Below, in pieces: positions 3,468 to 21,720 of a stretch of 24,625 bases of DNA (its first letter is position 1; every line of letters starts with the position of its first letter). The notes under the pieces were generated by a model, which saw nothing but the letters and a program-made list of their open reading frames with translations, had not been told where the DNA came from and made no database searches. The stretch spans positions 1-24,625 of the IMG/VR virus record IMGVR_UViG_3300026114_000163. One strand, given 5' to 3'. A program made the translations under genes and the position numbers. This stretch comes from a virus.

Positions 3468-5219
3468 TTACACATTTCTTAAAGCATCTCCTAGGCCTTG
3501 GTAATATGCCTTATCTTCATCATATGGATCTGTCCAGTCTGAGAAGTCAAGGTTAGGATAAAGCAGTTTTAATTCTTCAGCAACAATTTCTCTATTATTA
3601 AAGAACACAACAGTTTCGTCGCATTTAAATCCGCTGTCTATGTTATTAAAATCTCTGTATCTAGTAAGCCTAGTAACAGGTTCAGGAGCTAACACTTTAG
3701 TTATAGAATGTCTATATCGTTGTGCTACAGAATTAAGAAATGGCATGTTAGGCAAATAATCAAAAAAGTCTAATATTTGCTGTTTTAAAGACACACTAGA
3801 AGATTTAATTTCATAGTATAAGGTTCTACTATTATAAAAAACCTGATACCACCAGTGATATTGATACATTTTTATTAATTCTTCATTGGTATAGGAAATA
3901 CATTCATATATCTTCTTATCTCTATAGTAGTGCATTTTGTTATCAAATTGACACTGAGAGATAAAATCAGGATTTGTAATAGAATTATGTTGCCCCATGT
4001 TATGAAACTCGGTAGGAATTTCAAGTTCTTTGATTTTGATTTGATACTTGTCTATGTAGTTTTTCTGAGATAACGGCGCGTTCGGCAAAACCGAAAGAGA
4101 ATATCCACGCGAATAATAAACATCTAAATCAAAGTCTTTTTGCAAGGTGTCTAACCAGCTGTCAGGCGTTTCATTAGGTAATCCTACTATAAGTTCAGTA
4201 TGCACAGGATATTCGGCGTTATCAAATATATCAGTCATTATATCATCTTTCACATTCCACCTATCCGAAGCATGGAGGACGTCTTTTGTATGTGTCTGGA
4301 TGCCTACTTTTAGATGTGGCCATCTATCAAAAGTAAGTTCGGAATTAATTTTGTTTATAATTTTATGAAACTCTGCTTTGTTATTTTTTACAAGACCACT
4401 CAGACCTACATCTATATTGTTATTGTATTTTTCTTTTGCCCTCACCATCTCTTCTAGTATTTCATGATCACGCTCGAATATTCCAAAATTAGCATCAATC
4501 ACAAGGCAAACATTCATGCCATTTGAAGGATGCCAGATCCAATCTATTGTTTCGTAAATAGAGTCTAAATCAAATTTCCTAATTTTTGACCTTGTACTAG
4601 ATCCCCAATCACAAAATGAACAACCATAAGGGCATCCTCTGTTTGTTTCTAGTACACAATTAGTTGGACTATTAGGATTTCCTACAAGATTATCGAAAAT
4701 TCCATCTACATAAGGAGTAGGTATTTCAATATCCATGTGAGAATTTCGAAGTTTAGAAACGTTATAATGATTAATAGAAAATGTGTTAGGTATATAAGAC
4801 CAATCTTTTTCAAGGTTTAACAGAAGTTCTTCAAAATGCTTCTCCGATTGTCCAACAAAACAAATGTCTACAAATGGTCTTTCTGTAATGTACTGTGTTG
4901 CAGTTTCTCGGTCCTCTGGAACTTCTATCCCGCCATAAATTACAACTCCTCTTGGATTGATCTTTTTATACTGTTCACACAGTATATCGTTGTAATCTTT
5001 GTTCCACATATAGTTAGTGACACACATGATATCTATTTTTTTGAATTCTTTTGCATATTCTTGTATTTCTTTTCTTTCGTACCATATGTCTCTAAAAACA
5101 AAATTATCACGCAGTTCGGTATTTTTTAAACAATACGACATTAACCATCCGCTTGCATAGGGGATGTTGTTTTGCATTAGTTTTAAAAAGGAGGCTATGT
5201 TAACAAACTGGATGTTCAT
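3468..5219 (-). CDS. Radical SAM protein, B12-binding (BchE/MiaB-like layout) type
   Basis: 583 residues. The radical SAM cluster motif is C196-x3-C200-x2-C203 in ETNRGCPYGCSFCDWG. It is followed by segments typical of the TIM barrel: GLSGLVKNN, VGIQTHTKDVL, and TELIVGLPNETPDSWLDTL. Residues 1-180 look like the Rossmann-type domain that binds cobalamin in this class (VVIYGGIEVPED near 92-103). The DxHxxG cobalamin ligand motif is not visible, so B12 binding is doubtful. The C-terminal 200 residues are unassigned. AAGGAG lies about 5 bases from the ATG, and the 5' end overlaps the preceding gene by 20 bases. It could methylate or rearrange an unknown substrate; no substrate can be inferred. 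Confidence 0.8.
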   Translation of the reverse strand: MNIQFVNIASFLKLMQNNIPYASGWLMSYCLKNTELRDNFVFRDIWYERKEIQEYAKEFKKIDIMCVTNYMWNKDYNDILCEQYKKINPRGVVIYGGIEVPEDRETATQYITERPFVDICFVGQSEKHFEELLLNLEKDWSYIPNTFSINHYNVSKLRNSHMDIEIPTPYVDGIFDNLVGNPNSPTNCVLETNRGCPYGCSFCDWGSSTRSKIRKFDLDSIYETIDWIWHPSNGMNVCLVIDANFGIFERDHEILEEMVRAKEKYNNNIDVGLSGLVKNNKAEFHKIINKINSELTFDRWPHLKVGIQTHTKDVLHASDRWNVKDDIMTDIFDNAEYPVHTELIVGLPNETPDSWLDTLQKDFDLDVYYSRGYSLSVLPNAPLSQKNYIDKYQIKIKELEIPTEFHNMGQHNSITNPDFISQCQFDNKMHYYRDKKIYECISYTNEELIKMYQYHWWYQVFYNSRTLYYEIKSSSVSLKQQILDFFDYLPNMPFLNSVAQRYRHSITKVLAPEPVTRLTRYRDFNNIDSGFKCDETVVFFNNREIVAEELKLLYPNLDFSDWTDPYDEDKAYYQGLGDALRNV

Positions 5220-7041: not shown

Positions 7042-7899
7042 TCATAGCAAGTTTGTTTTATATTGTAAAATTGTTTTTTTGTCTTGTGTCAATAAATTAC
7101 CTATTCCAAGACGGTTAATTAATCCTTGTCTATCATAATCATTAAACCGAGGGTTATGTGTTGTACAAAAGATCACAGTATCTGATACTTCTACTCCTAA
7201 TTCATGCGCAATAAATTCCTGCTTCTGCCTATAGTTATCAAACATATAATCCGGAGAGAATTCTTGTATTACAGGCAAATGTAGATTTACGCTAACTTGA
7301 TTTACATAGCTGTAACGAGTTAATATATCCATAGAACAAGAAACAATATCTTTGTAGTAACACATCCCAATTTTACATTTGCCAGTCCCAAAAGTTTTAC
7401 TCAGACTAAACGCACAAAACTTTACACATTGATAATTTACATTAATCTCTGGTAGAGAACACAAGCCGAAATAGGCAAAATCTAGAAAAACTGGTATATC
7501 TAACATATCACATCTTGCTAATATATCATCTAAGGCTGCAGGCATATTGCCTGTTGAAGAAAAAGGGACGCTAAGTATCAATCGGTAACCAGGTGTTAGC
7601 TGACTAGGATTATCTATTTCTAACGCGCCAAGTCCCTTGTGATATAAGTATTCACCTTTGAAAACCATTAGAGGTTTGTTAGGAAAAGCATGTGCGAAAT
7701 CTGGAAAGGCACCCGTTACTCCATCAGTAAGCGCAGCAGAAAAATTTTCTAAACCTTTTATTTTACAGTTATCGCTAGAATGTATCCATTCATTATACCG
7801 CGAGATAAAGATGTTTAGATCGGCATCTTGCCAAATACTGTGTTGTAAAAAACTTTGTACGTCTTTGTCACAAATCGATAAAGGTTTTTCCGTGATCAT
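7042..7899 (-). CDS. PLP-dependent fold-type I aminotransferase-like protein, short C-terminus
   Basis: 285 residues. PLP features are K168 in FSLSKTFGTGKCKIGM (Schiff-base Lys plus a following Gly-rich segment), D140 in PVFLDFAYFG (pyridine nitrogen partner) and S114/T116 near a phosphate-binding turn. VPFSSTGNMPAALDDIL matches the segment preceding the Asp strand in class I/II aminotransferases. Only about 117 residues follow the Lys, against about 175 in the DegT-family enzyme of this window, so the small C-terminal domain is reduced. It may be a specialised or degenerate enzyme. ATGA overlap with the preceding gene. The amino donor and acceptor cannot be predicted. Confidence 0.7.
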   Translation of the reverse strand: MITEKPLSICDKDVQSFLQHSIWQDADLNIFISRYNEWIHSSDNCKIKGLENFSAALTDGVTGAFPDFAHAFPNKPLMVFKGEYLYHKGLGALEIDNPSQLTPGYRLILSVPFSSTGNMPAALDDILARCDMLDIPVFLDFAYFGLCSLPEINVNYQCVKFCAFSLSKTFGTGKCKIGMCYYKDIVSCSMDILTRYSYVNQVSVNLHLPVIQEFSPDYMFDNYRQKQEFIAHELGVEVSDTVIFCTTHNPRFNDYDRQGLINRLGIGNLLTQDKKTILQYKTNLL

Positions 7900-8436: not shown

Positions 8437-9417
8437 TTAGTTGATACATCCTACTAATGTAAACCGCGTGCCTCTTTCTTCTTCCATCTCATTCTCGTTA
8501 AGTACGTTAAAATTACCCGGCATCTGTTTTTTAAATTCTTCTATAGAATCAACACAGTTAATATGTCCTTCTATTCCGTACATGTTATTTGATTGTAGGG
8601 CGAAAATAGCATGTTTATTAACTTCATTCCAGAAAGGCCAATCTTGCATTGGCAGCATGTGTTCACAAGATGTATTAATTATAAGATCTGTGTCTTTGTA
8701 ACGCGATAAACACTTTTCGAATACATCGGCTTGCATATGTTCAATGTTTGAAAGATTTTGGAAAAGATGATTTTTTGCTATTTTTAATACCTGCTCATCT
8801 AGATCAATACAGGATATCCTTTTTGCATATTCTTTAAGTCTAGGAATTAAAATACTACCGTACCAAGATCCAAATATTATAACTTCTAACTCTCGAGATT
8901 TTTGTAAAAATTGAGAAACACTGCCGAGTAACTGATTTTTTGCGTTTAATTGATTATCGCTAAAACTGTCTAAAATGTTGTTGGCTAATTTAGGGTTATT
9001 TCGACATGCTGCTAAAACATTTCCTAACAAATTAAGATTATAATTGCTCGTAGAATTTAATAAAGTTGTGTAAAATCTCTGCTCGTCGTTTTCTTTTATT
9101 GCAAATAACAACGGATCTAATATATTTTGTACTTCTTTAACATTACTTATATCTGCGTTTAAATTAGATAGTACAATGTCTACAATATTTCTGTAATCAT
9201 TTTCTTTTATTGCAAATAACAACGGATCTAATATATTTTGTACTTCTTTAACATTACTTATATCTGCGTTTAAATTAGATAGTACAATGTCTACAATATT
9301 TCTGTAATCATTTTCTTTTATTGCAGTCATAATAGCATACGCATGTGTTAGATCTATGTTATCGTTTTCTAAACTTAAAATATTTTCATAATATTTTAAA
9401 TTTTCTCTATCTATCAT
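8437..9417 (-). CDS. Class I methyltransferase-like protein with duplicated N-terminal repeat
   Basis: 326 residues. The C-terminal part has a Rossmann-type SAM-binding layout: the motif I-like strand and turn VIIFGSWYGSILIP (179-192), acidic strand-2 end CIDLDE (D205, D207), QADVF (D231), and strand 4 DLIINTSCEHM (244-254). The motif I Gly pattern is GSWYG rather than the classic GxGxG. The N-terminal part (about 32-111) contains two exactly repeated 37-residue units plus a third start of the unit: AIKEND occurs at residues 32, 69 and 106. AAGGA is about 8 bases before the ATG. The start overlaps the carbamoyltransferase gene by 11 bases. The methyl acceptor is unknown. Confidence 0.65.
   Translation of the reverse strand: MIDRENLKYYENILSLENDNIDLTHAYAIMTAIKENDYRNIVDIVLSNLNADISNVKEVQNILDPLLFAIKENDYRNIVDIVLSNLNADISNVKEVQNILDPLLFAIKENDEQRFYTTLLNSTSNYNLNLLGNVLAACRNNPKLANNILDSFSDNQLNAKNQLLGSVSQFLQKSRELEVIIFGSWYGSILIPRLKEYAKRISCIDLDEQVLKIAKNHLFQNLSNIEHMQADVFEKCLSRYKDTDLIINTSCEHMLPMQDWPFWNEVNKHAIFALQSNNMYGIEGHINCVDSIEEFKKQMPGNFNVLNENEMEEERGTRFTLVGCIN
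9089..9325. repeat. Perfect 111-bp tandem duplication inside the methyltransferase-like gene
   Basis: Bases 9089-9199 and 9200-9310 appear identical at every position. A third, partial copy (TTTTCTTTTATTGCA) follows at 9311-9325. The period is 111 bases, or 37 codons, so the frame is kept. Absence of any synonymous difference means the duplication is very recent, maintained by conversion, or an assembly or sequencing artefact. Confidence 0.9.
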
Positions 9418-10930
9418 TACATTTCCTTATGACAGTATTGTTTATAACAAGTAGATTAAGACCACATTTTTTAAATGTACTGATAGCATCAGTTGGAGTT
9501 TCAACTATAGGTTCCTGGCAGTTGAAACTGGTATTCAAAACCATAGGAATATCGGTCAATTTACTGAATTTTTCTATCACTGTATAAAATTTGTTATTAA
9601 TCTCTTTGGACACAGATTGAACTCTTGCAGTTGTGTCTACATGGGTAACGCCAGGAATTTTATTTGATTTCGCAGGCACAATTCTTGACATGTAAGGCGA
9701 TACTTGATCGGTATCAAAATACTCTTGATAATGTTCTTCTAGCACTGCCGGCGCAAACGGTCTAAAATCTTCACGTTTTTTGATTGTGTGATTGATTCTG
9801 TCTTTGATATTAGGATCTCTAGGATCTGCCAGTATGCTTCTATTTCCTAGTGCTCTATTACCGCTCTCCGATTTACCTTGATACCACCCTACAATTTTGC
9901 CATCTGCAATTGCCTGTGCAGTCTCCTTTGCTACTTCGTCGAACGACTTCTCAATCCAGTCAAATTCGTCTAACAGCGCAGTGTCTAAATCCCAGTCTGT
10001 GCCCGCGTATACCGTCGTGTCGTGAACGTTGTTATTAATCACATAGTCTGCATGCATATAAGTACCGAGTGCTTGTCCTTCATCGCCTACGGCCGGAGGA
10101 ACGTGTACCTTGTCGTAGTGTTCAGTAAGCATTTCATTTACATAGCCATTATATGCAACGCCGCCTGCTACACAAATATTATCGCTGGTTTTGAGAGGAT
10201 AGACGATTTCTTTAATTAAGTGCTCTGTCTTTTTTTGCAGTGTGTAAGCAGTGTCTTGTTTTTTGGTTTTTTCTAAAAGTTCTTTTGCACCATTAGGAAG
10301 TTTGTGGTTAGGGTTGTCAAGATATAGATCTATCATATCTGCAATGTCCTCATCCCAATTGCCGTATCCTGCCAATCCCATAACTTTGCCGGCGCCGAGA
10401 TATCCTAACCCTATATCCTGTGCTAGCCTGTTCCAGAGTCCGCCGATAGATAATTGGTTAGATAGATCGATAATTTTGCCTGTCCTGTCTACAAAGATAC
10501 AATTAAATTGCCAGCCTCTGCCATCAATTGCTAGTATATCAGATTCTTTAAATTCTGATGAAAGAAAGGCGTAAGCCGCGTGACTCTGATGATGATCAAT
10601 ATAATAATACTGTTCTGTTTGGTAACAGTCCCAGAGATGTTCTGGTCGAAAATTCAAGAACTCTGTATTTGGCAGTGTTTTTTCTAGGAGATCGATCACA
10701 AACTCCTGACCGAGATTAGACACTGTGAATGCAAATACATCACTGTGAGAATACTTTTCGTAGTTAGGTACAAATTGTTCTCGAAAGAATCGCCTGCTGG
10801 GTTCTTTGTCATGAGAGTTTTTAGGATTAAGATTGTGCTTTAGTCTTGTATAGCGTTCTTCCTGTCTGTGAGTAACACCGTCGTACCAGTTATGATCATG
10901 AATGTTTACAGCAATAGAAAAAATTTTCAT
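9407..10930 (-). CDS. NodU/CmcH/TobZ-family carbamoyltransferase
   Basis: 507 residues, full length for the family. The N-terminal Kae1-like domain has the metal motif H113-H-x2-H117 (DHHQSHAAY), AIDGRG (134-139), LGAGKVMGLAGYG, CVAGGVAYNG (253-262) and PPAVGDEGQALGT (278-290). The C-terminal domain has GNRALGNRSILADPR (358-371), REDFRPFAPAVL, HVDTTARVQ and VLNTSFN (464-470). Family members make carbamoyl-adenylate from carbamoyl phosphate and ATP and pass the carbamoyl group to a hydroxyl, usually on a sugar or antibiotic. The start forms an ATGA overlap with the preceding radical SAM gene, so the two are probably coupled in expression. Relatives occur in marine phages. The acceptor here is unknown, possibly a glycan made by the upstream genes. 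Confidence 0.9.
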   Translation of the reverse strand: MKIFSIAVNIHDHNWYDGVTHRQEERYTRLKHNLNPKNSHDKEPSRRFFREQFVPNYEKYSHSDVFAFTVSNLGQEFVIDLLEKTLPNTEFLNFRPEHLWDCYQTEQYYYIDHHQSHAAYAFLSSEFKESDILAIDGRGWQFNCIFVDRTGKIIDLSNQLSIGGLWNRLAQDIGLGYLGAGKVMGLAGYGNWDEDIADMIDLYLDNPNHKLPNGAKELLEKTKKQDTAYTLQKKTEHLIKEIVYPLKTSDNICVAGGVAYNGYVNEMLTEHYDKVHVPPAVGDEGQALGTYMHADYVINNNVHDTTVYAGTDWDLDTALLDEFDWIEKSFDEVAKETAQAIADGKIVGWYQGKSESGNRALGNRSILADPRDPNIKDRINHTIKKREDFRPFAPAVLEEHYQEYFDTDQVSPYMSRIVPAKSNKIPGVTHVDTTARVQSVSKEINNKFYTVIEKFSKLTDIPMVLNTSFNCQEPIVETPTDAISTFKKCGLNLLVINNTVIRKCNDR

Positions 10931-11757
10931 TCTGTTTCTGTTATCCCCAACTTATTAAGAATCATCTGTTTCTGCCAATCTGAACGTCGTGGAATAATGT
11001 CCATGCAAGTCTCGCAGTATTTTTCAAATTGGAATAAATCAAAATTCATCATTTTATCTACGTTTTCTTTGGTTATTTCATACTGTCTAGAGCCATTAAT
11101 AACTTTTCTGCTGCAATGACGAATTTTCTGTATTTCAAAATCTACAACAGGCACTAGAGGAAACTGTGCGCAAACTCGTCTGTCAATTTCTGGTGCCTGT
11201 TCCTGTCTTTTAAATTCTGGTGATCTAGAATTATATTCTTTAAATTCTGTATTTTTGTGGTCAATTTCTGTTAAATCAAAATTTTCTCTATACCTAAAGT
11301 AGTTAGGAGTTTCAATAATTAGATTGTAATTGTTTTTGTCGTTTTCTTCGAAAAAATCAAATTTGCCAAGTTTTTCAATCCTATCCTCGTAAAAGTCTAA
11401 CACCAGATGTTCTATATAGATAATTTCTGGGTCTTCTAACACCCAAGGATAACTGTTTCTTACAAGAGAATTACTTAACACCTGTATAACAAGATTGTCG
11501 TGTTTCTTTATTTCAGCAATTACTTCATCAAGATTTCTAATAAGGCCAGGCTCTCCGCCTAGTAGGCAGATTCTTGTTTTATAGGGAGAAAGATACTCTA
11601 CAGTGCGTTTTAGAAAATCCATATCTACATGGAGATTTCTCATCTGTTTTGTCCATGCTGTGCAGTAGTGACAGGACTTATTACAGGACTTCGAAAGATA
11701 AAAGTCTACTGTAAGATATTCTGATCCTTTAAGATCTTTTAAAGTTTTGATCGTCAT
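10927..11757 (-). CDS. Radical SAM protein with C-terminal auxiliary-cluster cysteines
   Basis: 276 residues. C25-x3-C29-x2-C32 (KSCNKSCHYCTAW) binds the SAM cluster, and ICLLGGEPGL (63-72) contains the GGEP SAM motif. Four later cysteines (C196, C215, C248, C251 in YCETCMD) could hold an extra Fe-S cluster of the twitch/SPASM type. The region between the barrel and these Cys is short, so the barrel may be partial. Four bases separate it from the nitroreductase stop; the upstream Shine-Dalgarno is weak. Its close pairing with the carbamoyltransferase suggests both act on one product, but the substrate is not predictable. Confidence 0.8.
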   Translation of the reverse strand: MTIKTLKDLKGSEYLTVDFYLSKSCNKSCHYCTAWTKQMRNLHVDMDFLKRTVEYLSPYKTRICLLGGEPGLIRNLDEVIAEIKKHDNLVIQVLSNSLVRNSYPWVLEDPEIIYIEHLVLDFYEDRIEKLGKFDFFEENDKNNYNLIIETPNYFRYRENFDLTEIDHKNTEFKEYNSRSPEFKRQEQAPEIDRRVCAQFPLVPVVDFEIQKIRHCSRKVINGSRQYEITKENVDKMMNFDLFQFEKYCETCMDIIPRRSDWQKQMILNKLGITETE

Positions 11758-11761
11758 TTTT

Positions 11762-12475
11762 TTATAAACTTCTTCCGTTCAAATATATAGTTGTTTCTTT
11801 GTTATAACTAGGAAATTTCCAAAATTCATTCGGTAAACCGTTTCTACAATCTTCTGGAACATCTTTATTTAGAGTGTCCGCATGCTCCTTTCTGTCTCTA
11901 TCTTCATTTTCATAACCTATACCAACTAGTAGTTTAGGTTCTTTTTCTGTTTTTATAAGCTTTTTAACAGGTTCTTCGTCCATCGCAGAACAGATTCCTG
12001 TTTTATAACCGAGTAAACCAGCTGTCAAAATTAATTCACCGACGCTAATACCCATACTGTAGTTTTTTTGTTCAGTAAGTACTCTTTGTCCAAATTCACT
12101 GCCGTTTTTTCCTCTTAGATGAGTTGCGCCACGTGCTTCTCCTTCGTCCTCTACATATACAAACAACACATTTGCATATACCTGAGAATTCTTTACAGCA
12201 TAATTTTGATATAACCAATTCTCGCCTTTGTCTTCTTCTAGTGCTTCTTTTATTCCTAGAGTAAATTTATGTGTACAATTATATATTTGTTTTATAATAT
12301 ACTCATCTGTAAAAATATGCAATGACAAATGTTTCTCATTTTGTTTAGAAGGAGATTTTTTTGCAGCATAAATTAATAATTCTAAATCCTCATTAGGTAT
12401 AGATTTAGATAAATCATAATTTCTCTGTGCTCTTTGCACAGTATCTATAGATTTTTTTATCTCATCTCTATTCAT
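11762..12475 (-). CDS. Nitroreductase-family FMN protein
   Basis: About 237 residues. Evidence: an N-terminal RAQRNYD...SIPNEDLELLIYAAKKSPSKQN pattern (residues 15-46) with the helix and Ser-rich FMN phosphate site of nitroreductases; a central helix GISVGELILTAGLLGYKTGI; and LLVGIGYENEDRDRKEH near the C-terminus. Family members use FMN and NAD(P)H to reduce nitro, ene or imine groups, or act as dehydrogenases in natural-product pathways. The frame is open 7 codons further to an ATG at 12496, overlapping the upstream gene by 20 bases. I chose the ATG at 12475, one base after the upstream stop (TAAGATG), the same junction seen at 8435-8439. A more distant relative is at 15409-16083. Confidence 0.75.
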   Translation of the reverse strand: MNRDEIKKSIDTVQRAQRNYDLSKSIPNEDLELLIYAAKKSPSKQNEKHLSLHIFTDEYIIKQIYNCTHKFTLGIKEALEEDKGENWLYQNYAVKNSQVYANVLFVYVEDEGEARGATHLRGKNGSEFGQRVLTEQKNYSMGISVGELILTAGLLGYKTGICSAMDEEPVKKLIKTEKEPKLLVGIGYENEDRDRKEHADTLNKDVPEDCRNGLPNEFWKFPSYNKETTIYLNGRSL

Positions 12476-12476
12476 C

Positions 12477-13091
12477 TTATGTGGAGACCCAATCATACAA
12501 ATGATTACTTTTGATTACGTCTAAGTCTGAATATGCAGTTAATATGTCTGTTTTTTCTATCAATTGGTGTTTTTTTAAATATTGGTACACATAAGAGTAT
12601 GCTTTTTGATTTCTATCTATGCTCGTTATACCTGCTATTTGACTATCGTCGCAGAGCGGCAAATATAATTGACAGTAATAACCTCGATCCAAAAATTTAT
12701 TCATAGAAAAAGTAGAACTATGTAAAACACATCCCGAAGTATTGGTTCCTCCGTATATTATTGTAGTATGATTAGGTGATAATTCAAAACCAATTTCACT
12801 AAGATGGGCCTCAAGAGTAGAGAACTTATCTTCTTTGTAAAATTGTAACCAAGTCCAACCTTTATCCAAGGTTGCTTGTTTTTTCAATACAATATTTTTT
12901 GAACATTCAGTGTCCTCTAGATCTGTTCTATCTGTTGCGCCTGCTGATGCTATTACACATTTTTCTCTATCTATATACCTATCATTAATAATATCTTGTA
13001 GGGCATATGTTCGATATCTATCTGCAAAATCATCGGTTAATGCAGGATGTCCTTCTATGTCCATTAAGAAAATTAAACAATTTTTATTCAT
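12477..13091 (-). CDS. Isochorismatase-like cysteine hydrolase
   Basis: 204 residues, not obvious at first sight but with the family's catalytic layout. D11 sits in IFLMDIEGH at the end of strand 1. A Lys in FYKEDKFSTLEAHLSEIGF (K86 or K89) precedes the L..L...G helix. C121 lies in IIYGGTNTSGCVLHSST, matching the G-x-x-T-x-x-C-V nucleophile motif. It is followed by FLDRGYYCQLYLPLCDDS, equivalent to the GY.V.VV.DA strand. Members hydrolyse nicotinamide, ureido, carbamoyl or vinyl-ether substrates. C5, C45 and C63 are additional. There is no strong Shine-Dalgarno. The start is 10 bases after the QueC/radical SAM gene, so it is probably the same transcript. Nicotinamidase identity is not supported over other amidases. 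Confidence 0.65.
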   Translation of the reverse strand: MNKNCLIFLMDIEGHPALTDDFADRYRTYALQDIINDRYIDREKCVIASAGATDRTDLEDTECSKNIVLKKQATLDKGWTWLQFYKEDKFSTLEAHLSEIGFELSPNHTTIIYGGTNTSGCVLHSSTFSMNKFLDRGYYCQLYLPLCDDSQIAGITSIDRNQKAYSYVYQYLKKHQLIEKTDILTAYSDLDVIKSNHLYDWVST

Positions 13092-13101
13092 AGTTTATAC
13101 T

Positions 13102-15333
13102 TTACAGAATATTTCTATCTGCATTTTCTTCTTGTTGTTTTACTTTATCGTCCCAAGATTTAAAAAGTTTTTCTTTTTCAGATGATAATTCTTTAGGAAT
13201 ATAAAATTCTTCTAGTTCAGGAAATACATCAAATAAATGACTTTCCCATTTAGTACCTTCGTAAAATTTATCTCCTCTTAATAGATATTCAAATACATCT
13301 TGCACGTCTACATCTGGGTCATTAGGCATTTCTAACGCTGCTACAATATCAGGCCAATCTTGGTATTTTGGTATCAATTTATCTTTTATAGGTTTAGGCA
13401 AATTGCTAGGCTTTAAATGTTTAGGGTTTTCGACATGTGCCCAATTTAATTGATTGATAACTGGATTTTCTTTGCACCAATCAATTATCTCATAAAAACG
13501 CATAACACTTAAGAATGATACTAGTCCATTAAAATCAACTACTACATTAGGGTATTTTTTGCATAATTCAATATTTTCTACTACTTCGGCCCATTCAGTC
13601 CTTCTTCTCATGTATTCAATAGTTTTACCTATTCCGTCGATTGATGCGACAAATGTTACACGATCGAAGTGCGGCACATATTTAAATATGTTATGCTTGC
13701 CTGCTTTGGTTTTTGTTAGATTAGTTTGGTACTTTATTCTTATTCTTTTAGAATGTCCAGAATCAATAAGTGCATCTAACATTTCATAATGTTTTTTCAT
13801 TATTAAAGGTTCGCCACCAATAATCTTTATGCTTTTGATGTATTGGGCAATTTCTAAAATTTGTTCTGTAACCCCTTGAGTTTTATCTTTCATTACGTGA
13901 GACATGCGTTCTTCGCGTGCATCATCCATTGGTTTAAAAATTTTATCACTCCATACGCCTTTTTTGGCTACTTGCCAACGTGTAGTGGAATTATCGTGAT
14001 GGCACATAAAACAATCTAAGTTACATTCTGATCCATATATTTTAAGTTGAACCTCAAATATTCTTTCGGCACCTTTAAGCGTAAATTCACCGGTCTCCTT
14101 GAATTTTGTAACTTGTCTTTCTATTTTGTTCCAAAATCTTGGATCATTTGTGTGAATTTTTAGACAATTTGTTCTTCTAGACCTTCCGTAGAGATTTTCG
14201 TCACTACGACAACGTTGACACCATTTGTTTACTGCTTTTAAATCAGACCCTACTGTAGTCATCTCTCTACGCAAATCATTCATGTAATCACTTTTTTCCA
14301 TCCAATCTTTAAGAGGAACTTCTTCTACACTTACACCCGATGGTTTTCCAAAACAACATGCTTGGTACTGTCCGTCTATTTCTGAATATATTTGTGTGAA
14401 CGGAATAGTACAAAAATAGATATCTTTATCTTTTGCTTGCTTTACTATGGATCCTTCTTTATCAGCAACTTTTTGACCTTCTTCGTCCATTATTTGCCAC
14501 CAAGATTCGGTACTAATATTTCCGGGTGTAGATTTATCCCCCGGGCCACCTTTGGTCAACATATCCTTTGATACCAGTGGATTGGGTAAATCAAAAGCCC
14601 AGGCCTTCTCTGCACACCAAAAGCAACTGTTGCATTCATGTTTGAAATTGTCAGTTTGTTTTGCCGTGCCGACGCACGACCTTGTTAAAGGAAACAAACT
14701 GTCCATTAAGTTATGTTCTTGGAATACTCCAGCAACAAATTTTTTATTAACGTTAGCATATGCCTGATATATATAAAAATGTTTTTCTTTATAGCCAGTT
14801 CTGTACTCTTCGATCCAGGGCATGCCTTGGTCTCTGCGTCTTTCGGCCAAATAATAAAATCCCTTTGCTTGCATTTCGTTGTCTGGCGGGTTACGTGTCA
14901 TACCGTCTAGTCTTACTGCGCCAGGATGTTTTTTCATTGCATCCCAAGCGATATTGTCTAACTGCATAATCTTTGACACTTGTGTTCTACGCATCCCTTC
15001 AAACTGAGGATAAGTTTCGATAACCTTATCTACTTTTTCAAAAGTAACAAAATCTTCAGTTTTGTCGTTAAAATCAAATATTTGTATATCGTCAATCAAG
15101 TTATTGGGAAAGTTATTTTTCATCCATTTTACAATTTTCTCTGCAGCATCTGCATCTAATGGAGCATTCAGATCTCTGCATGTAATTGGAATTATTCTAA
15201 TCTGGGGATAAAAATTAGCAACAAGATAAAATAAGGATGCACTATCTAGTCCCCCTGATAAAGAAATTAAACATTTTTCTGGAATTTCTTTAGGAAAAAG
15301 ATCGATAGTTTGGCCGCCGTATGTTAAATGCAT
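13102..15333 (-). CDS. Fusion: QueC-like PP-loop ATPase + twitch/radical SAM enzyme
   Basis: 743 residues. Part 1 (1-250): a PP-loop SGGLDS at 26-31, then a QueC-type zinc site C220...C234-x2-C237-x2-C240 followed by AEKAWAF. QueC enzymes activate a carboxylate with ATP and form a nitrile. Part 2 (about 300-743): a Cys-rich segment (C308, CC at 326-327, C372, C375) typical of twitch-domain radical SAM proteins, then C437-x3-C441-x2-C444 (CNLDCFMCHHD), KIIGGEPL (503-510) and VASIDGIGKTIEYMRRR (562-578). A complete radical SAM enzyme thus appears joined to a complete QueC-like ATPase. AGAGGA is about 9 bases before the ATG. A 75-base gap (15334-15408) precedes it, with only a poor late-promoter-like AATAAACA. 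The substrate is unknown; it may be a carboxylate that the two halves process in succession. Confidence 0.8.
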   Translation of the reverse strand: MHLTYGGQTIDLFPKEIPEKCLISLSGGLDSASLFYLVANFYPQIRIIPITCRDLNAPLDADAAEKIVKWMKNNFPNNLIDDIQIFDFNDKTEDFVTFEKVDKVIETYPQFEGMRRTQVSKIMQLDNIAWDAMKKHPGAVRLDGMTRNPPDNEMQAKGFYYLAERRRDQGMPWIEEYRTGYKEKHFYIYQAYANVNKKFVAGVFQEHNLMDSLFPLTRSCVGTAKQTDNFKHECNSCFWCAEKAWAFDLPNPLVSKDMLTKGGPGDKSTPGNISTESWWQIMDEEGQKVADKEGSIVKQAKDKDIYFCTIPFTQIYSEIDGQYQACCFGKPSGVSVEEVPLKDWMEKSDYMNDLRREMTTVGSDLKAVNKWCQRCRSDENLYGRSRRTNCLKIHTNDPRFWNKIERQVTKFKETGEFTLKGAERIFEVQLKIYGSECNLDCFMCHHDNSTTRWQVAKKGVWSDKIFKPMDDAREERMSHVMKDKTQGVTEQILEIAQYIKSIKIIGGEPLIMKKHYEMLDALIDSGHSKRIRIKYQTNLTKTKAGKHNIFKYVPHFDRVTFVASIDGIGKTIEYMRRRTEWAEVVENIELCKKYPNVVVDFNGLVSFLSVMRFYEIIDWCKENPVINQLNWAHVENPKHLKPSNLPKPIKDKLIPKYQDWPDIVAALEMPNDPDVDVQDVFEYLLRGDKFYEGTKWESHLFDVFPELEEFYIPKELSSEKEKLFKSWDDKVKQQEENADRNIL

Positions 15334-15408: not shown

Positions 15409-16083
15409 CTATTCGTCTACAAATGTAAAAATGTCTTCGAACGGTGCGTCTGTATCAAGTTTTGAATCTTCCGGTGTAAGTGTTTCCCATTTATACTTTT
15501 CTCCTTTACCTATCGTTTGTATTAGAGCAGGAGTAAAATCTAGAAATGGAAAATTAATCCATTTTTCTAGCCGTTCAGGAAAACATATATTATACGAAGT
15601 ATCCCATCCCTTTTCTAAAGCAACACCAGTAATTACCTTAGCAAGCATGCCTATTTCTATTGCACAAGATTCTCTATTGTTACGATTAACAAATTTATAA
15701 TTGTCTAATTCCCACAACGAATGAGAAGCATCAAAAGTTTTTCTATAATAGGCATTTGGTGATGCAATTCTCGGCCCGTATATTAATGTCCAAGGAGCAG
15801 AATACATATGATATAGTCCTGGATTTGGTCTATATCTGTCTCCGGGATCGCCTAATGCTTTGAGGTCAGTATTTATTTTATTTCCTTCACACAAATTCCA
15901 AAGTTCGTTGCTCCGGTTTTTATTAGGACCCAAAACGTGTACTTCATATGGATATCCTTTTTGCTTAGATGAGACCAACGGATATGCGGTTTGAAGTATT
16001 TGCAAAATTTCTTCTTCAGTAGGAAATATGGAGGTACTATAATTTACTACATGTTTCCTATTCTTTAATGACTCTTGTATCAT
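15409..16083 (-). CDS. Divergent nitroreductase-like protein
   Basis: 224 residues. The N-terminal helix and RKHVVNYSTSIFPTEEEILQ (residues 9-28) followed by a hydrophobic helix, then EVHVLGP, resembles the start of nitroreductase-fold proteins. ESCAIEIGMLAKVITGVALE (138-157) corresponds to the long central helix. The FMN-binding Ser/Arg pattern is less clear than in the protein at 11762-12475, so cofactor binding is uncertain. AAGGA is about 9 bases before the ATG. It lies between the two QueC-like genes, suggesting a shared pathway. Confidence 0.55.
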   Translation of the reverse strand: MIQESLKNRKHVVNYSTSIFPTEEEILQILQTAYPLVSSKQKGYPYEVHVLGPNKNRSNELWNLCEGNKINTDLKALGDPGDRYRPNPGLYHMYSAPWTLIYGPRIASPNAYYRKTFDASHSLWELDNYKFVNRNNRESCAIEIGMLAKVITGVALEKGWDTSYNICFPERLEKWINFPFLDFTPALIQTIGKGEKYKWETLTPEDSKLDTDAPFEDIFTFVDE

Positions 16084-16107: not shown

Positions 16108-16779
16108 TTAATTCAAAGCCCAAGCACGTTCTTGACACCACCAACATACACCGCAAGTTGTTTTATTGCTATCGAGATTAGTACATGAATAGGTTATGTC
16201 TAAAAGGCTCATAATTCCAAACTGTTTATAACATTCTATAATAAACTTTTTGTTAACAAATTTGAACGGTGCTAAGTAATCATCTACTCTTTCAATTTCG
16301 TGCCATAAATGGTATCCTGGTAATCGTTTTACGCTCAGCCCATCTTCTTGTTTGATAAAATTTTGTTGAACTTCTAACGGCGGTCCCATTGACACTCCGT
16401 TCATTACTAAATCCACAACTTTATATTTCTCTAATCTGTTAAGTAAGGATGCAATATACGTATTTTTATTATTATTTTGATTACCTTGGGTATTAAAAAC
16501 TGTAGAAATTGGCCACTGTAAATCAACGTCTGGAAAAGATCTTTGAATATAATGCACAATATCAATTACAGCATTAGAATCGGTAGGAGCCCATAAATCG
16601 TATCCATTATAGGGCTGTATGGTGATATTCAAGTTTTTGGCATAACTAGTTTTTGCAAGAATGTAACATAACAACGTGCTATCGGCACCTCCCGACATTG
16701 ATAGTCCAAGAGTTTTATTTCTAAAAACTTTTTTTTTAGACATGACCTGTATTGTGCCGAATTTATTTTTATAACGCAT
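16108..16779 (-). CDS. Stand-alone QueC-like PP-loop ATPase
   Basis: 223 residues, about QueC length. The PP-loop is SGGADS (29-34). The zinc-type cysteines are C199, C209, C212 and C215 in TTCGVCWWCQERAWALN, at the extreme C-terminus. It shares extended similarity with the N-terminal half of the fusion at 13102-15333: FVNKKF...SLLDITYSC against NVNKKF...SLFPLTRSC, and YDLWAPTD against RDLNAPLD. They are therefore paralogues. The family reaction is ATP activation of a carboxylate and addition of ammonia; the substrate here need not be carboxy-deazaguanine. The start overlaps the DegT gene by 11 bases. An alternative ATG at 16743 with AGG upstream would remove 12 residues. Confidence 0.75.
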   Translation of the reverse strand: MRYKNKFGTIQVMSKKKVFRNKTLGLSMSGGADSTLLCYILAKTSYAKNLNITIQPYNGYDLWAPTDSNAVIDIVHYIQRSFPDVDLQWPISTVFNTQGNQNNNKNTYIASLLNRLEKYKVVDLVMNGVSMGPPLEVQQNFIKQEDGLSVKRLPGYHLWHEIERVDDYLAPFKFVNKKFIIECYKQFGIMSLLDITYSCTNLDSNKTTCGVCWWCQERAWALN

Positions 16780-17842
16780 CTTTTACTGTTTTAATAACGT
16801 ATTCTACTTCGGAATCATCTAACCATGCGTGAATTGGTAAAGATAATACAGTATCAGAGGCCTGTTTCGATGCTGTACAAAAGTCTTTTCTAAATTCTAT
16901 ATTTTTATACATACTATTTTTGCTTAACGGAGTTTCGTAGTGTATAGATGCTCCAATTGCATTCTTTACTTGTTTTCTTTGGTCTTTATTTTCAAATCTT
17001 ATCACGTACTTGTGATAATTGTGATCAAGTTCTTTGGTTATGTGTTGCGTAACCAAAGGGCAGTTTGCAAATCCGGTGTTATATTTATCTGCAAGTTGCT
17101 GCCTGCGTTTTTGATTATGTTCGGCATCTTGTAGGCGCAATTCTATAATTTTTCCGTTTAAAACATACATACGACTGTTATATCCTAGCATAGAAAAATC
17201 TTTATCCTTGCCGTGTCTACGAATCTTTCTTACAGTGTCTGCAATTTCGTCATTGTCGGTTAAAAATACGCCGCCGCCATTTATTCCAGCAATAACTTTG
17301 TTTGTGTTAAAACTAAAAACGCTGCAGTCGCCGATGGTGCCTGCCGAGATCCCGTTGAGGCTGCTGCCCAAACTTTGCGCAGCATCTTCAACAAATAGTA
17401 TTTTTTTTTCTTTGCAAAATTCTTCAATTTTACTAGTATCAGTCATATTACCGAACAGGTGAGGATATACAATTGCTTTTACTTTGTCTGAATACATGCG
17501 TTTGATGCTGTCTAAAGACATATGATATGAATCTAAATCGATATCACAAAAAACCGGTGTTGCACCTACCATACTGACACAGGCTGAACTGCTTATCCAA
17601 CTAAAGTCTGTAACTAAAACTTCGTCACCTGGGCCAATGCCGTGCGCTAACAAGGAGAAGTGCAACGCATCAGTAGCACTAGAAACACTAACACAATGTT
17701 TACGTCCTATGCGTTGAGCAAATTTATCTTCAAACGAACTGTTGTCTTCATAGTTTGCTTGTGACATAAAATTATTAAATAATTCTTGATATTGTTCTTT
17801 GTTTTCTTTATATTCTCTATCCCAGCCGTCGTAAGGTATCAT
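16769..17842 (-). CDS. DegT/DnrJ/EryC1/StrS-family sugar aminotransferase
   Basis: 357 residues, full length. Key residues: K182 in FSFNTNKVIAGINGGG (PLP Schiff base), VEDAAQSLGS (151-160, with D153 and Q156), and SSATDALHFSLLA (54-66) for phosphate binding; PGDEVLVTDFSW follows the latter. These enzymes transfer an amino group from glutamate to keto-sugars used for O-antigen, capsule or antibiotic sugars. AAGGAG is about 14 bases from the ATG, unusually far, and an in-frame TAA two codons upstream rules out an earlier start. The gene lies between a radical SAM gene and the QueC-like gene. It probably makes an amino sugar for the glycan genes upstream or a precursor for the QueC-like step (inference). 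Confidence 0.9.
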   Translation of the reverse strand: MIPYDGWDREYKENKEQYQELFNNFMSQANYEDNSSFEDKFAQRIGRKHCVSVSSATDALHFSLLAHGIGPGDEVLVTDFSWISSSACVSMVGATPVFCDIDLDSYHMSLDSIKRMYSDKVKAIVYPHLFGNMTDTSKIEEFCKEKKILFVEDAAQSLGSSLNGISAGTIGDCSVFSFNTNKVIAGINGGGVFLTDNDEIADTVRKIRRHGKDKDFSMLGYNSRMYVLNGKIIELRLQDAEHNQKRRQQLADKYNTGFANCPLVTQHITKELDHNYHKYVIRFENKDQRKQVKNAIGASIHYETPLSKNSMYKNIEFRKDFCTASKQASDTVLSLPIHAWLDDSEVEYVIKTVKDAL

Positions 17843-17860: not shown

Positions 17861-18619
17861 TTAATTCGTTAAATTTAAAGATTGCATTTTATCTCTTGAC
17901 ATTCTTTGCCATACTTCTAATGATGCAGATTTATATCCCCAATATTCTTTCTTAACACGTTGCTGAGTGTGTTTTTTATCAGGACTGGTTAATTTAAAAT
18001 CAACGTTTTTCCTAAGTAGAGGACTATCGGGGTTAAATCCTCGGTTCGTATTAATTAACAACAAACTAAAATCTTCTTCTTTTGCAATTTCTATTGCGCG
18101 GTCTACCTCGTGTTCGTTATAACCAAAAATTATGTATTGCCATACAATTACGTGACCCAGATCTCTTCCCTGTTTCATTCTTTGCCAGACTTCTTGAAAA
18201 TCGGAGCCTATTCTATATAACTCACTTTTTTCATCAATGCCGTCTACTCCAAAATACCATGCATTTTCTCCAACACCGTAACTGTAGGCCTCGTCCCACC
18301 ATGCATCGCTTTTGCCGCTACCCACTGTGGCAATTCTCACTGCTTTGCCCTGTCCGTTGCACATTTTTAAAAGATTAAGAAACTTAGGATGGTAAATTGG
18401 GTCTGATATCTGACCACAAAATGTTATACCAAGTTCATAATAATCTAGAATTTTTTTAAATTGCTCTTCTTCTAGGTCAAACGACCGTTTTATTTGTTCT
18501 TGACTTGTTGTTTTTTGTCGAATACATTGAGGGCATCTAAAAATACATCTATGAGAAGCATCTATATTAGGCCTACAAAATCTTTGGTATTTTACATATT
18601 CGTCAGTAATTCTTGCCAT
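17861..18619 (-). CDS. Radical SAM core protein lacking its own auxiliary domain
   Basis: 252 residues. C25-x3-C29-x2-C32 in HRCIFRCPQCIR binds the SAM cluster. FCGQISDPIYHP (67-78) takes the place of the GGEP region, as in several phage radical SAM proteins. AWYFGVDGID and VWQYIIFGYNEHEVDRA match later barrel strands. There are no Cys clusters beyond residue 90. The preceding gene (18603-18953), overlapping by 17 bases, encodes a separate Cys-rich protein that looks like the missing auxiliary-cluster domain. The two probably act as a pair. Substrate unknown. Confidence 0.8.
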   Translation of the reverse strand: MARITDEYVKYQRFCRPNIDASHRCIFRCPQCIRQKTTSQEQIKRSFDLEEEQFKKILDYYELGITFCGQISDPIYHPKFLNLLKMCNGQGKAVRIATVGSGKSDAWWDEAYSYGVGENAWYFGVDGIDEKSELYRIGSDFQEVWQRMKQGRDLGHVIVWQYIIFGYNEHEVDRAIEIAKEEDFSLLLINTNRGFNPDSPLLRKNVDFKLTSPDKKHTQQRVKKEYWGYKSASLEVWQRMSRDKMQSLNLTN

Positions 18620-18953
18620 TTGCTTGATCTCTAACTTCTATTTTTTCTTCTTTTTTAACTTCATCCATATCTACGTTAACGCCGCACTTCTTTTTACACA
18701 TATAAGAAGCGTCTTGAGGTCTATTAATTAATGTCTGAAAAAAGTTTTCCCATTGTTCAGACTTAAAAATATCTTCTAGCGAGTTGTTATTAGATAACAG
18801 TAATTCATCATCTTTTAATCCGCATGCCTTTACATACCTGTAGACCGGCGGGTCGTCCATCCAACAACACGGAAGCATAAATCCGTCAGATGTGTATGCT
18901 GCTCCTTTGTTGTCTTTTTTACCAAATGCCAAACACTTAGGTTCAATTTTCAT
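18603..18953 (-). CDS. Stand-alone twitch/SPASM-like Fe-S auxiliary protein
   Basis: 116 residues with six cysteines: C7 (PKCLAFG), C29-C30 (GFMLPCCWMD), C44, C86 and C90 (YMCKKKCG). The sequence order G-AAYTSDGFMLPCCW, a SLEDIFKSEQWENFF helix, then CxxxC is that of the C-terminal auxiliary [4Fe-4S] domain of twitch/SPASM radical SAM enzymes. There is no SAM-cluster CxxxCxxC. The C-terminal 25 residues are charged. AGAGGA lies about 6 bases from the ATG, which overlaps the previous stop (ATGA). It overlaps the radical SAM core gene downstream, which it probably serves in trans. Confidence 0.7.
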   Translation of the reverse strand: MKIEPKCLAFGKKDNKGAAYTSDGFMLPCCWMDDPPVYRYVKACGLKDDELLLSNNNSLEDIFKSEQWENFFQTLINRPQDASYMCKKKCGVNVDMDEVKKEEKIEVRDQANGKNY

Positions 18954-19801
18954 GCATTGTCCTCTATAATTTTAAATATTGGCGATACGTCTGGTTCTTT
19001 GATACTTCTATTCCAGTAAACGCTACCGCCGTCGACTAAGGATTTATCTCTCTGATAGATTACGTTTTTTCCAAAGTATCTACATTCTTGAAATATTCTA
19101 GGTGCTGGATCAAATGTATTTTTTGTATAAACATAAGTTTCAAACATTCCTAACAAATCATCTACAGGTGCAAATACATTATTGTTTTTTGAATCAATAT
19201 ATTTCTCATTATAGGTTAATATACCGTGATTAGGATATTGGTCTATTATATCTTGTATTGTTGCATAGTATTTGTCATTTGTTCCAAGGAATAGGTGCTC
19301 GAACTGTATATTGTTTGTTACGGGTTTATGTATATCAAAATTGATTGTTTTTTCAAAGTGTTCACCTACGCCGTTAGGATATACTTCGTGGTCGCAAAGA
19401 TCAAATATTCTATATGGTGCAAAAAAAGAAACTGCTTTGGGATATATGGTAGGATGATTTTCTGAATACACAGATATTAACTTATGCGAAAATAATCTTT
19501 TAAGAGAACTTTGCTGTGTTTCTGTATAATTATCAAAATCTATGTAAGCCAGACTCATTTGACTTCGGCCCATAATCAGAGAAAAATCTTGCTTTCTCGG
19601 TGCTACACTGTCAAATTCAATATCTTGACAGTGAATATATTTGTTTTTTATTGCCATAATATAGTCAGATGGTAGAAATTTTCTATTACATATCACTATA
19701 ACCCTTGCATTGATTCCTAGTGATTTAAGATAAGAACTATACTCGTAACTATAGTAAAATAGGCCGTCGCAAGGTTTACTGGTACAAACTATATTAATCA
19801 T
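18950..19801 (-). CDS. Glycosyltransferase-like protein (GT-B fold, GT4-like)
   Basis: About 283 residues. The start MINIVCTSKPCDGLFYYSYE and SYLKSLGINARVIVIC fit the first Rossmann half of GT-B glycosyltransferases. The C-terminal half has FETYVYTKNTFDPAPRIFQE (positions ~230-250) followed by YFGKNVIYQ, like the donor-binding region where an acidic residue sits before an E-x7-E type helix. The frame continues upstream only from a TTG (19831). I chose the ATG at 19801, which overlaps the preceding gene by 8 bases. Donor and acceptor are unknown. Confidence 0.6.
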   Translation of the reverse strand: MINIVCTSKPCDGLFYYSYEYSSYLKSLGINARVIVICNRKFLPSDYIMAIKNKYIHCQDIEFDSVAPRKQDFSLIMGRSQMSLAYIDFDNYTETQQSSLKRLFSHKLISVYSENHPTIYPKAVSFFAPYRIFDLCDHEVYPNGVGEHFEKTINFDIHKPVTNNIQFEHLFLGTNDKYYATIQDIIDQYPNHGILTYNEKYIDSKNNNVFAPVDDLLGMFETYVYTKNTFDPAPRIFQECRYFGKNVIYQRDKSLVDGGSVYWNRSIKEPDVSPIFKIIEDNA

Positions 19802-20474
19802 TGTTTTCAAAATAAAATTTAAGCCACTCAAAGTCGTTTATTTTTTGTAACTCGATAATGTTGTCTTTGTTTTCTTCACCGAATTTTCTACCTTCTTTGG
19901 CGCCTTTTATAGCATCTATGCCAAACGGTCGATTGACACCTTGATTACACCATGTTTCTAAACGTTCAAATGTTTCTGAATTAAGTTGTCTATCTATTGT
20001 TTGGCTAGCAAGTTTCGCACACTCTCTAAAACCAGATCGCCAAGCACTAAATGAATCAGTATTGAACGCTGTTATATTTGATGTTTGTTCGACTGCTCGA
20101 AAACTATTGGATATACTAGTTGTCATATCCGCTCTAGAAGTATCCATTTTTATAGTTTTGGTTCTTGGAAGCAGTTTTACACCTCCATACCCGTACACGA
20201 GATCATTTACAGGATTTTGAGAATTCCACACATGAACAGTGTCTAAATTATATTCGTCTACTTCGTAATCAAATGAAAAGTCATCCAACAGTTCAGCATC
20301 AGCATCTACTACCCAAAACATTTTTGTAAAACATCGCTTTGCGGCTTTGATATGTGCTTGGTGTATTCCTTTTACACCGTCTACTCTTTTTGCAGAAGGA
20401 AAACGAGATTTTAAAAGTTCCCAGTTTTTATCTGCGTTTGATTCATTATAAGATATAAACACAATGTCATACAT
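19794..20474 (-). CDS. GT2-like (GT-A) glycosyltransferase
   Basis: 226 residues. IVFISYNES at the start is a GT-A first strand. The metal and nucleotide-sugar motif is D57-A-D59 in FWVVDADAELLDDF. VHVWNSQNPVNDLVYGYGGVKLLP matches a family frequent in marine T4-like phages. The C-terminal part has FRAVEQTSNITAFN and SAWRSGFRECAKLA, probably acceptor binding. No Shine-Dalgarno is visible. The 22-base gap before it is very AT-rich (TATATAATAG) and may hold a weak promoter. Confidence 0.75.
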   Translation of the reverse strand: MYDIVFISYNESNADKNWELLKSRFPSAKRVDGVKGIHQAHIKAAKRCFTKMFWVVDADAELLDDFSFDYEVDEYNLDTVHVWNSQNPVNDLVYGYGGVKLLPRTKTIKMDTSRADMTTSISNSFRAVEQTSNITAFNTDSFSAWRSGFRECAKLASQTIDRQLNSETFERLETWCNQGVNRPFGIDAIKGAKEGRKFGEENKDNIIELQKINDFEWLKFYFENND

Positions 20475-20496: not shown

Positions 20497-21720
20497 TTAT
20501 CTTTGTCTAGTATTACCGTAGTGTATTACTCGGCTAACCGAACTTGAGAATTTTCGCCAGGGATCTATCACAATACTGAAAGGAGGAATTGGACAATAAA
20601 TCTCGTCTCGAGTTTTTGTTTCTGTGTAATCATAGGTTACTGAGGCAGAGTGTGCCATAAGAAACACACCAGGTTCTGTAGGTTGATAATCGTCGCCTGT
20701 ATAAGGATCTATATAGGTAGGTTTAATTCCTGCTTCTTGTACGTAGTGTCCTACTAGTAAACTGTATGATCCGTCTGTGTAAGGAACTTGTGGCTTATAT
20801 GCTTTGCCGTGTATGTATATGGGCATGTTATTTTCATTTGCGTGCTTTACTAGTTCGAGAGCAAGATTTTTTGCTTGTATCTCTCTCGCACTCATAATAG
20901 CATCAAATAAGTCATAGCCTAGACCAAGTTCCTGCGCCATATAACGTAGAGCGATGTTATCTCTAGGATGGCAGGCGCCTCCGTCCCCCATGCCTGCTGT
21001 CATGTACTGTGGCGACATTATACGTTTGGTAGAATTAGCAAGTGCTTCTGTTACTACATCCACGTTGATATTTTTTTGTTTTTCTGCAACGTCCTGTATC
21101 ATGTTAACTAGAGATATTTTTGTAGAAATAAAAGTATTGTAAAAGACCTTGATACATTCACACTCGTCATAGGTACCGACAACTGTAGAAGGATTGTTTT
21201 CCATGACAGTATCATAAAATTCTTTTAACTGTTTAGCGTCTCCTGTTTCAGATCCGTCGTCGGTGCCAATCATTATCATTTCTGGATTGACCATGTCCCA
21301 GCCAACAGATCCCATTGCTATAAGATAGGGGTTATAAACAAATCTTGTATTAGTTATGATTGGTGTGAATTCTCTTCTCGTAGTGCCAGGTAATACAGTA
21401 GATATTAACACCAACAGTTGGTCTTGGTTCATGTGTTTGTCTGCTTCTTCGAGAACAGACTTCACAGTATCATAGGAGAAGTCTTTTGGCGACAAATGGT
21501 TAGTAGGAGCACTTCCGTCATAGTCAGCATCATGTGGTGTGGGAACTGCTACAAACACAATATTACAGCCTTGCACACATTCTTGAATATTGTAGGTAAA
21601 GTCAACAAGGTCGCTGTCAAGAGGATCAAGGTCGTATCCTTTCACAGTGTGGCCCTTCTTTGCAATTTCTTCAGCACAAGGCAAACCCAGTTTACCTACT
21701 CCGATATATCCTATATTCAT
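20497..21720 (-). CDS. UDP-glucose/GDP-mannose 6-dehydrogenase family
   Basis: 407 residues. N-terminal NAD-binding GxGxxG at 7-12 (GYIGVGKLGLP), VAVPTPHD (57-64), STVLPGTTR (107-115) and YNPYLIAMGS; a central helix with K191 and N195 (ECIKVFYNTFISTKISLVN); and the catalytic C250 in GGACHPRDN. The family oxidises the C6 hydroxyl of a nucleotide sugar to a carboxylate with two NAD+. Here HPRD replaces the more usual FPKD. The C-terminal Rossmann half (IYIHGKAYKP onward) is shorter than in bacterial Ugd. AAAGGAG is 7 bases from the ATG. It gives a uronic acid donor that the neighbouring glycosyltransferases could use (inference). Confidence 0.85.
   Translation of the reverse strand: MNIGYIGVGKLGLPCAEEIAKKGHTVKGYDLDPLDSDLVDFTYNIQECVQGCNIVFVAVPTPHDADYDGSAPTNHLSPKDFSYDTVKSVLEEADKHMNQDQLLVLISTVLPGTTRREFTPIITNTRFVYNPYLIAMGSVGWDMVNPEMIMIGTDDGSETGDAKQLKEFYDTVMENNPSTVVGTYDECECIKVFYNTFISTKISLVNMIQDVAEKQKNINVDVVTEALANSTKRIMSPQYMTAGMGDGGACHPRDNIALRYMAQELGLGYDLFDAIMSAREIQAKNLALELVKHANENNMPIYIHGKAYKPQVPYTDGSYSLLVGHYVQEAGIKPTYIDPYTGDDYQPTEPGVFLMAHSASVTYDYTETKTRDEIYCPIPPFSIVIDPWRKFSSSVSRVIHYGNTRQR

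Follow-up and report, generated by a model that had tools for sequence, protein, structure and literature searches.

PP-loop domains of the QueC superfamily activate a carboxylate (or carbonyl) by adenylation and hand it on to a nitrogen or sulfur nucleophile. Canonical QueC is defined by the motifs SGGxDS, C(x)8CxxCxxC, YxQxHxxE, VPxRN and YPDC, and its residues Y35, R99, Y131 and Y189 are essential (PMC13329287, 2026). Pelagimyophages are reported to carry host-recognition clusters that include radical SAM (rSAM) cassettes, glycosyltransferases and UDP-glucose 6-dehydrogenase, and O-chain modification has been suggested for such clusters (PMC7029224).

The locus described here lies in a viral window (the whole stretch of DNA that was analysed) of 24,625 nucleotides, and encodes an undescribed phage enzyme of two domains, which adds a new phage branch to the QueC superfamily. 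The first-pass annotation had pointed to one 743-residue frame and to a domain order not known from any standard enzyme. The frame is real and lies on the minus strand, which had not been given, with an ATG start and no internal stops; the plus strand across 13102-15333 has many stops. Among described enzymes none was found to have its domains in this order. The motif residues that had been named (SGGLDS at 26, C220/C234/C237/C240, CxxxCxxC at 437-444 and GGEP at 506) are all in place. The features of the fused gene are as follows.

13102..15333, minus strand: fused CDS, QueC-like PP-loop domain plus N-terminal-twitch radical SAM enzyme, 743 aa
14584..15333, minus strand: PP-loop domain of the QueC superfamily, residues 1-250 (profile match to QueC by hhalign, E 6.6e-8; tied structural matches Cap9 Z 13.7, QueC Z 13.0, QatC Z 12.8)
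15241..15258, minus strand: SGGLDS ATP-binding loop, residues 26-31 (motif in 49/49 relatives)
14614..14676, minus strand: Zn-type Cys site C(x)13CxxCxxC (C220, C234, C237, C240; invariant in alignment A7)
14416..14583, minus strand: linker, residues 251-306, which corresponds by homology to the N-terminal leader in rSAM relatives that stand alone (alignment A3; dN/dS 0.11-0.42)
14209..14412, minus strand: N-terminal twitch/auxiliary cluster Cys (C308, C326, C372, C375; invariant in alignment A9)
13201..14415, minus strand: N_Twi_rSAM region, residues 307-711 (NF033640 E 3e-85)
14002..14025, minus strand: radical SAM CxxxCxxC, CNLDCFMC, residues 437-444 (invariant in alignment A9)
13807..13818, minus strand: GGEP SAM-binding motif, residues 506-509

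The N-terminal half is, at the level of the fold, a member of the QueC superfamily and not a canonical QueC. With the fused protein alone the Pfam QueC model gives E 0.16, far under the cut-off. The same model is matched by all 13 of the relatives scanned (best 7.7e-7), and in hhalign a 29-member profile of relatives and one built from nine canonical QueCs align at 94.6% probability (E 6.6e-8, 199 columns), a control profile in the same comparison reaching 0.2%. The AF2 model of the fused protein (mean pLDDT 81) places residues 18-250 near Cap9 (Z 13.7), QueC 3bl5 (Z 13.0) and QatC (Z 12.8), with LarE and TilS also within Z 12-14; matches less than 1 Z unit apart count as tied, and further PP-loop enzymes, LarE for one, are among the ties. 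Canonical QueC was absent among the first 50 Foldseek matches and second by VIA-align, and a PDB profile search with the PP family returned partial PP-loop matches only. The QueC-type PP-loop fold proposed in the first pass is thus supported by the Pfam matches of the relatives, by the profile comparison and by the modelled structure.

The active-site residues also set this branch apart. SGGxDS is kept in 49/49 phage relatives, as are the four site cysteines, whose spacing is 13-14 in 48 of them. YxQxHxxE, VPxRN and YPDC each occur in 0/49 relatives, and the fused protein has Val221 where QueC has a Tyr after the first Zn Cys. Invariant positions of the phage PP family (alignment A7) include D54, D60, K121, P149, R167, K197, F199, T217 and S219-C220.

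The C-terminal half is a clear case of N_Twi_rSAM (NF033640), with the cysteines of the SAM cluster and the auxiliary cluster intact. With the NCBIfam model NF033640 (twitch domain-containing radical SAM protein), residues 307-711 score 286.7 bits (E 3e-85), where the cut-off is 170, and cover model positions 4-398 of 398. C437/C441/C444 and C308/C326/C372/C375 are invariant in alignment A9; in the fused protein the auxiliary stretch has Cys at 308, 326, 327, 372, 375 and 390. Residues 423-673 of the AF2 model match BlsE (Z 10.7), and this half also resembles the SuiB, anSME and SkfB folds. A PDB profile search with the twitch rSAM gave no match. The family score and the BlsE-like fold bear out the earlier view of a full twitch/radical SAM enzyme, and the model contains both folds.

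The fused gene lies in a cassette of genes for rSAM enzymes, flavoproteins and sugar enzymes, of which the following are in the window.

8437..9417, minus strand: methyltransferase-like (PF13649 1.7e-4, under the curated cut-off)
9407..10930, minus strand: NodU/NolO-type carbamoyltransferase (PF16861 3.5e-65; phrog_1601 1.5e-108)
10927..11757, minus strand: rSAM F07 (PF04055 8.5e-9)
11762..12496, minus strand: nitroreductase F08 (PF00881 2.4e-9)
12477..13091, minus strand: conserved protein F11 (alignment A5; no Pfam family)
15409..16083, minus strand: nitroreductase-family flavoprotein F05 (PF00881 matched by 8/15 family members, best 1.2e-11)
16108..16779, minus strand: stand-alone QueC-like paralogue, 223 aa (PF06508 E 4.4e-6; about 25% to the fused PP domain)
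16769..17842, minus strand: DegT/PseC-type sugar aminotransferase (PF01041 8.3e-85)
17861..18619, minus strand: rSAM F00 (PF04055 7.3e-7; same strand as PP in 22/22 loci)
18603..18953, minus strand: SPASM-only small protein F02 (PF13186 0.016; fused to other genes elsewhere)
18950..19831, minus strand: GT-B glycosyltransferase F10 (AF2 pLDDT 89.7; PimA Z 15.3, BshA Z 14.9)
20497..21720, minus strand: UDP-sugar dehydrogenase-like (named by eye; 72% homologue in L008)

Several other genes deserve mention. The stand-alone paralogue, two genes upstream of the fusion, has SGGADS and CGVCWWC, and its relatives were found in L003, L005, L035 and L036 only. The F11 family has an invariant G-x-N-x-x-G-C motif; a by-eye assignment as an isochorismatase-like cysteine hydrolase was dropped, with nothing in Pfam and E 0.84 in the PDB profile search. 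Window positions 3468-5219 encode a B12-binding radical SAM protein (PF02310 and PF04055), which adjoins two 2OG-type oxygenase-like genes and a desaturase-like gene, and 7042-7899 is a shortened class I/II aminotransferase-like gene with 32% identity to its homologue in the Pelagibacter phage Mosig. Carbamoylation of 5-hydroxymethylcytosine by the NodU gene (PMC8670742) was considered and rejected, the thymidylate-synthase-type gene being present in 1/12 long relative viral records and there with two stops. The gene after PP in L108 and L109 has no Pfam match and is not retained as a GT8-like glycosyltransferase.

Neighbours on the same strand as the PP gene were counted at the 22 non-redundant loci with enough flank. 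F00 is present at all 22, followed by SPASM (19), DegT and a separate twitch rSAM (18 each), F07 (17), NodU (16), GT-B (15), the methyltransferase (13), and the nitroreductases and F11 (12 each). It is thus the F00 rSAM, different from the fused twitch rSAM, that constantly accompanies the PP domain. A UDP-sugar dehydrogenase lies beside PP in 2/22 loci. The minimal T4-like modules (L066 4435-8861 and L071 5712-8858) have the order nitroreductase-(twitch rSAM)-SPASM-F00-PP, in which the twitch rSAM is optional, lie between baseplate genes, and contain no GT-B, DegT or NodU. The PP family occurs at no fewer than 164 places in viral contigs, and none was found among 50,697 public phage records. 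Four cell-genome contigs with the family were found in a second scan, the first having found none; at least one of them (L107) shares the cassette and could be of phage origin, binned together with a cell.

The phages with the fusion are marine and probably have SAR11 bacteria as hosts. Gene similarity suggests that the window lies in the host-recognition region of a pelagimyophage-like phage, and a full-length gp6-type baseplate gene is present in 4 long relative records. Pelagibacter phage Mosig EXVC030M (L106, MT647606.1 50446-74994), whose host is 'Ca. Pelagibacter ubique' HTCC1062, has a sister cassette between its tail-fibre genes and VrlC. The identities are 54% for GT-B, DegT and NodU and 57% for F07, and F00, SPASM, methyltransferase and nitroreductases are also present; this stretch has no PP and no twitch rSAM gene. 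Since Mosig is in culture, the pathway enzymes are open to study in a living phage-host pair.

The best explanation, with a probability of about 0.5, is that the fused protein is an ATP-dependent carboxylate-activating enzyme that tailors a glycan-linked metabolite, within a modular cassette of a pelagimyophage-like host-recognition region. The PP domain would use ATP to adenylate the carboxylate or carbonyl of a non-deazaguanine substrate, a nitrogen would then be joined to give an amide, amidine or ligated amine, and the twitch rSAM would make a radical change on the same product. The substrate may be a sugar or sugar-linked metabolite in its acid or amide form, modified by several rSAM enzymes. 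The neighbours would aminate, carbamoylate and methylate the product, with GT-B, DegT, NodU and the methyltransferase supplying, attaching and decorating the sugar, and the GT-B may move the product to a surface glycan of the host or virion. The fusion would hold two enzymes of one pathway together without being needed for catalysis. Among the substrates listed in the first-pass annotation, a sugar acid appears to fit these surroundings best, and a deazaguanine is unsupported, given the 0/49 motif count. The core chemistry itself may not act on a sugar, since L066 and L071 lack GT-B, DegT and NodU, and the scarcity of a UDP-sugar dehydrogenase beside PP also counts against the explanation.

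The fact that the PP and rSAM halves are separate genes in relatives raises the question of a chimeric assembly or a missed frameshift. Frames identical to the fused CDS are present in two other assemblies (L001, L002), and nine further loci (L004, L006, L025, L035, L037, L040, L041, L046 and L049) have diverged fused homologues whose PP half shows 54-83% identity. The search of viral contigs for the same fusion, as proposed in the first pass, yielded ten non-redundant viral loci in all. Comparisons with L025 and L004 give dN/dS of 0.08-0.15 for the PP half and 0.05-0.11 for the rSAM half, which indicates purifying selection on both, the linker being less constrained. The best match in the viral structure library, A0A1B1IX00 (974 aa, aligned over 790 columns), may be a further such fusion already in public databases. 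With independent fused homologues in hand, and no stop or frameshift between the halves, the artefact is refuted in practice and the fused frame is genuine. A separate matter is whether the fusion serves to channel an unstable intermediate from one active site to the other, as the first pass had proposed. In favour of this, the fused form is kept in several lineages, and many unfused relatives (L007-L010, L028, L030, L032) have PP and twitch rSAM side by side with the order unchanged. However, the arrangement is not stable. Among 49 PP genes, ten are fused to the twitch rSAM, eight are its direct neighbours (in seven the order is the same, often with few-base overlaps), nine have it a few kilobases away, one is fused to a different rSAM, and 21 have none in the flank, which, the flanks being limited in length, does not mean none in the genome. 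The PP tree forces at least four changes between fused, split, separated and rSAM-lacking states, and close pairs on it differ: L006 is fused and L008 has two genes, and L037 is fused and L036 has no twitch rSAM in its flank, like L034, another neighbour of fused relatives. Other adjacent cassette genes fuse as well, including PP with the F00 rSAM in one 458-aa frame adjoining a PP-twitch rSAM pair (L032 10264-11640), GT-B with SPASM (L041 3951-5165 and L049 3867-5087) and F00 with SPASM (L077 2426-3496). For this reason the fusion signals a shared pathway and not, by itself, channelling; as a requirement channelling is unsupported, and it is an unlikely purpose of the fusion. The natural fused, split and rSAM-less forms are ready comparisons on whether the fusion matters.

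Two other chemistries compete with the tailoring of a glycan-linked metabolite. The enzyme could be a true QueC that makes preQ0 or another deazaguanine with which DNA or tRNA is modified, the rSAM then contributing one more step. Membership in the QueC superfamily, the canonical QueC commonly carried by other phages (303 records) and a FolE in 1/12 long relative viral records are in keeping with this, but the relatives lack YxQxHxxE, VPxRN and YPDC, and the Tyr that Val221 replaces is the essential Y189 of QueC. QueD and a TGT domain were not found in the 12 records, an absence that is only indicative because the records are fragments and the host may supply the functions. A deazaguanine substrate and a nitrile product made from its carboxylate, as first suggested, are therefore unsupported; canonical preQ0 synthesis is rejected on the absent motifs together with the pathway genes not found, and the wider reading is very improbable. 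The modification of a protein or peptide has somewhat more in its favour, and is a possible if doubtful reading. The PP domain could act like Cap9 or QatC and join an activated carboxylate to a protein N-terminus, or the SPASM/twitch, PP-loop and nitroreductase enzymes could mature a phage protein or small peptide. SPASM/twitch enzymes often have peptides as substrates, and the resemblance of the rSAM half to SuiB, anSME and SkfB agrees with this, as do the top structural match to Cap9-CdnD and the nearby QatC, although these matches are tied with LarE and other PP-loop enzymes. This reading stands because the smallest modules are without sugar enzymes. Against it, the Cap9-type YxDC motif is absent, and the genes of the window, like those of the minimal modules, abut or overlap, so that the RiPP version, which needs room for a precursor peptide, is rejected.

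Returning to the glycan-linked metabolite, a more specific proposal can be made tentatively: the reaction of a phage-specific QueC branch may be an ATP-dependent amidation, nitrile formation or ligation, not described before, whose substrate is a sugar-linked metabolite modified by radical SAM enzymes. If so, marine phages would carry a modular pathway, like those for natural products, that rewrites the surface of the host (or virion).

Among known systems, the pelagimyophage host-recognition cluster and Mosig have a gene set of the kind found in the window, with GT, DegT, NodU, rSAM, nitroreductase and desaturase genes, which in them lie beside tail fibres. They differ in that the Mosig cassette is missing the PP-loop and twitch-rSAM genes, and in that the available sections of PMC7029224 do not describe a QueC-like/rSAM fusion. 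The C-terminal half scores above the N_Twi_rSAM family cut-off across the full model, and differs in following a PP-loop domain on the same chain. WbpG-type N-sugar amidotransferases (PF06508 cluster 5) are of the same PP-loop superfamily, and the DegT and glycosyltransferases here make a sugar context plausible, but their motifs SGGxDSxY and CxxC(x)6CxC (PMC13329287) are not in the phage family (alignment A7).

QueC itself (PF06508 cluster 1) shares the Rossmann PP-loop fold over residues 18-250, SGGxDS, a C-terminal CxxCxxC Zn-type site and a conserved Lys ahead of the Cys site. The Cys spacing is 13 in the phage protein and 8 in QueC, and the phage protein has no QueD partner found and no TCY tyrosine, with RDxNAPxDAdAA and RLDGMTxNPP in place of YxQxHxxE, VPxRN and YPDC. 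Cap9 (type IV CBASS) and QatC (qatABCD) are QueC-superfamily enzymes outside queuosine synthesis and among the best structural matches. They are protein deazaguanylases, and their partner protein, a CD-NTase or QatB, has an essential N-terminal Gly. No CD-NTase or QatA/B/D was noticed among the neighbours in the phage cassette, the family is missing QueC motifs that Cap9 retains as well as the YxDC of Cap9, and the PP-loop enzyme here is phage-borne and has rSAM partners. QueC-type enzymes have recently been found reused in phage defence, for protein tagging. The family described here is a further QueC-type branch, on the phage side, with its substrate pocket rebuilt and its radical SAM partners constant.
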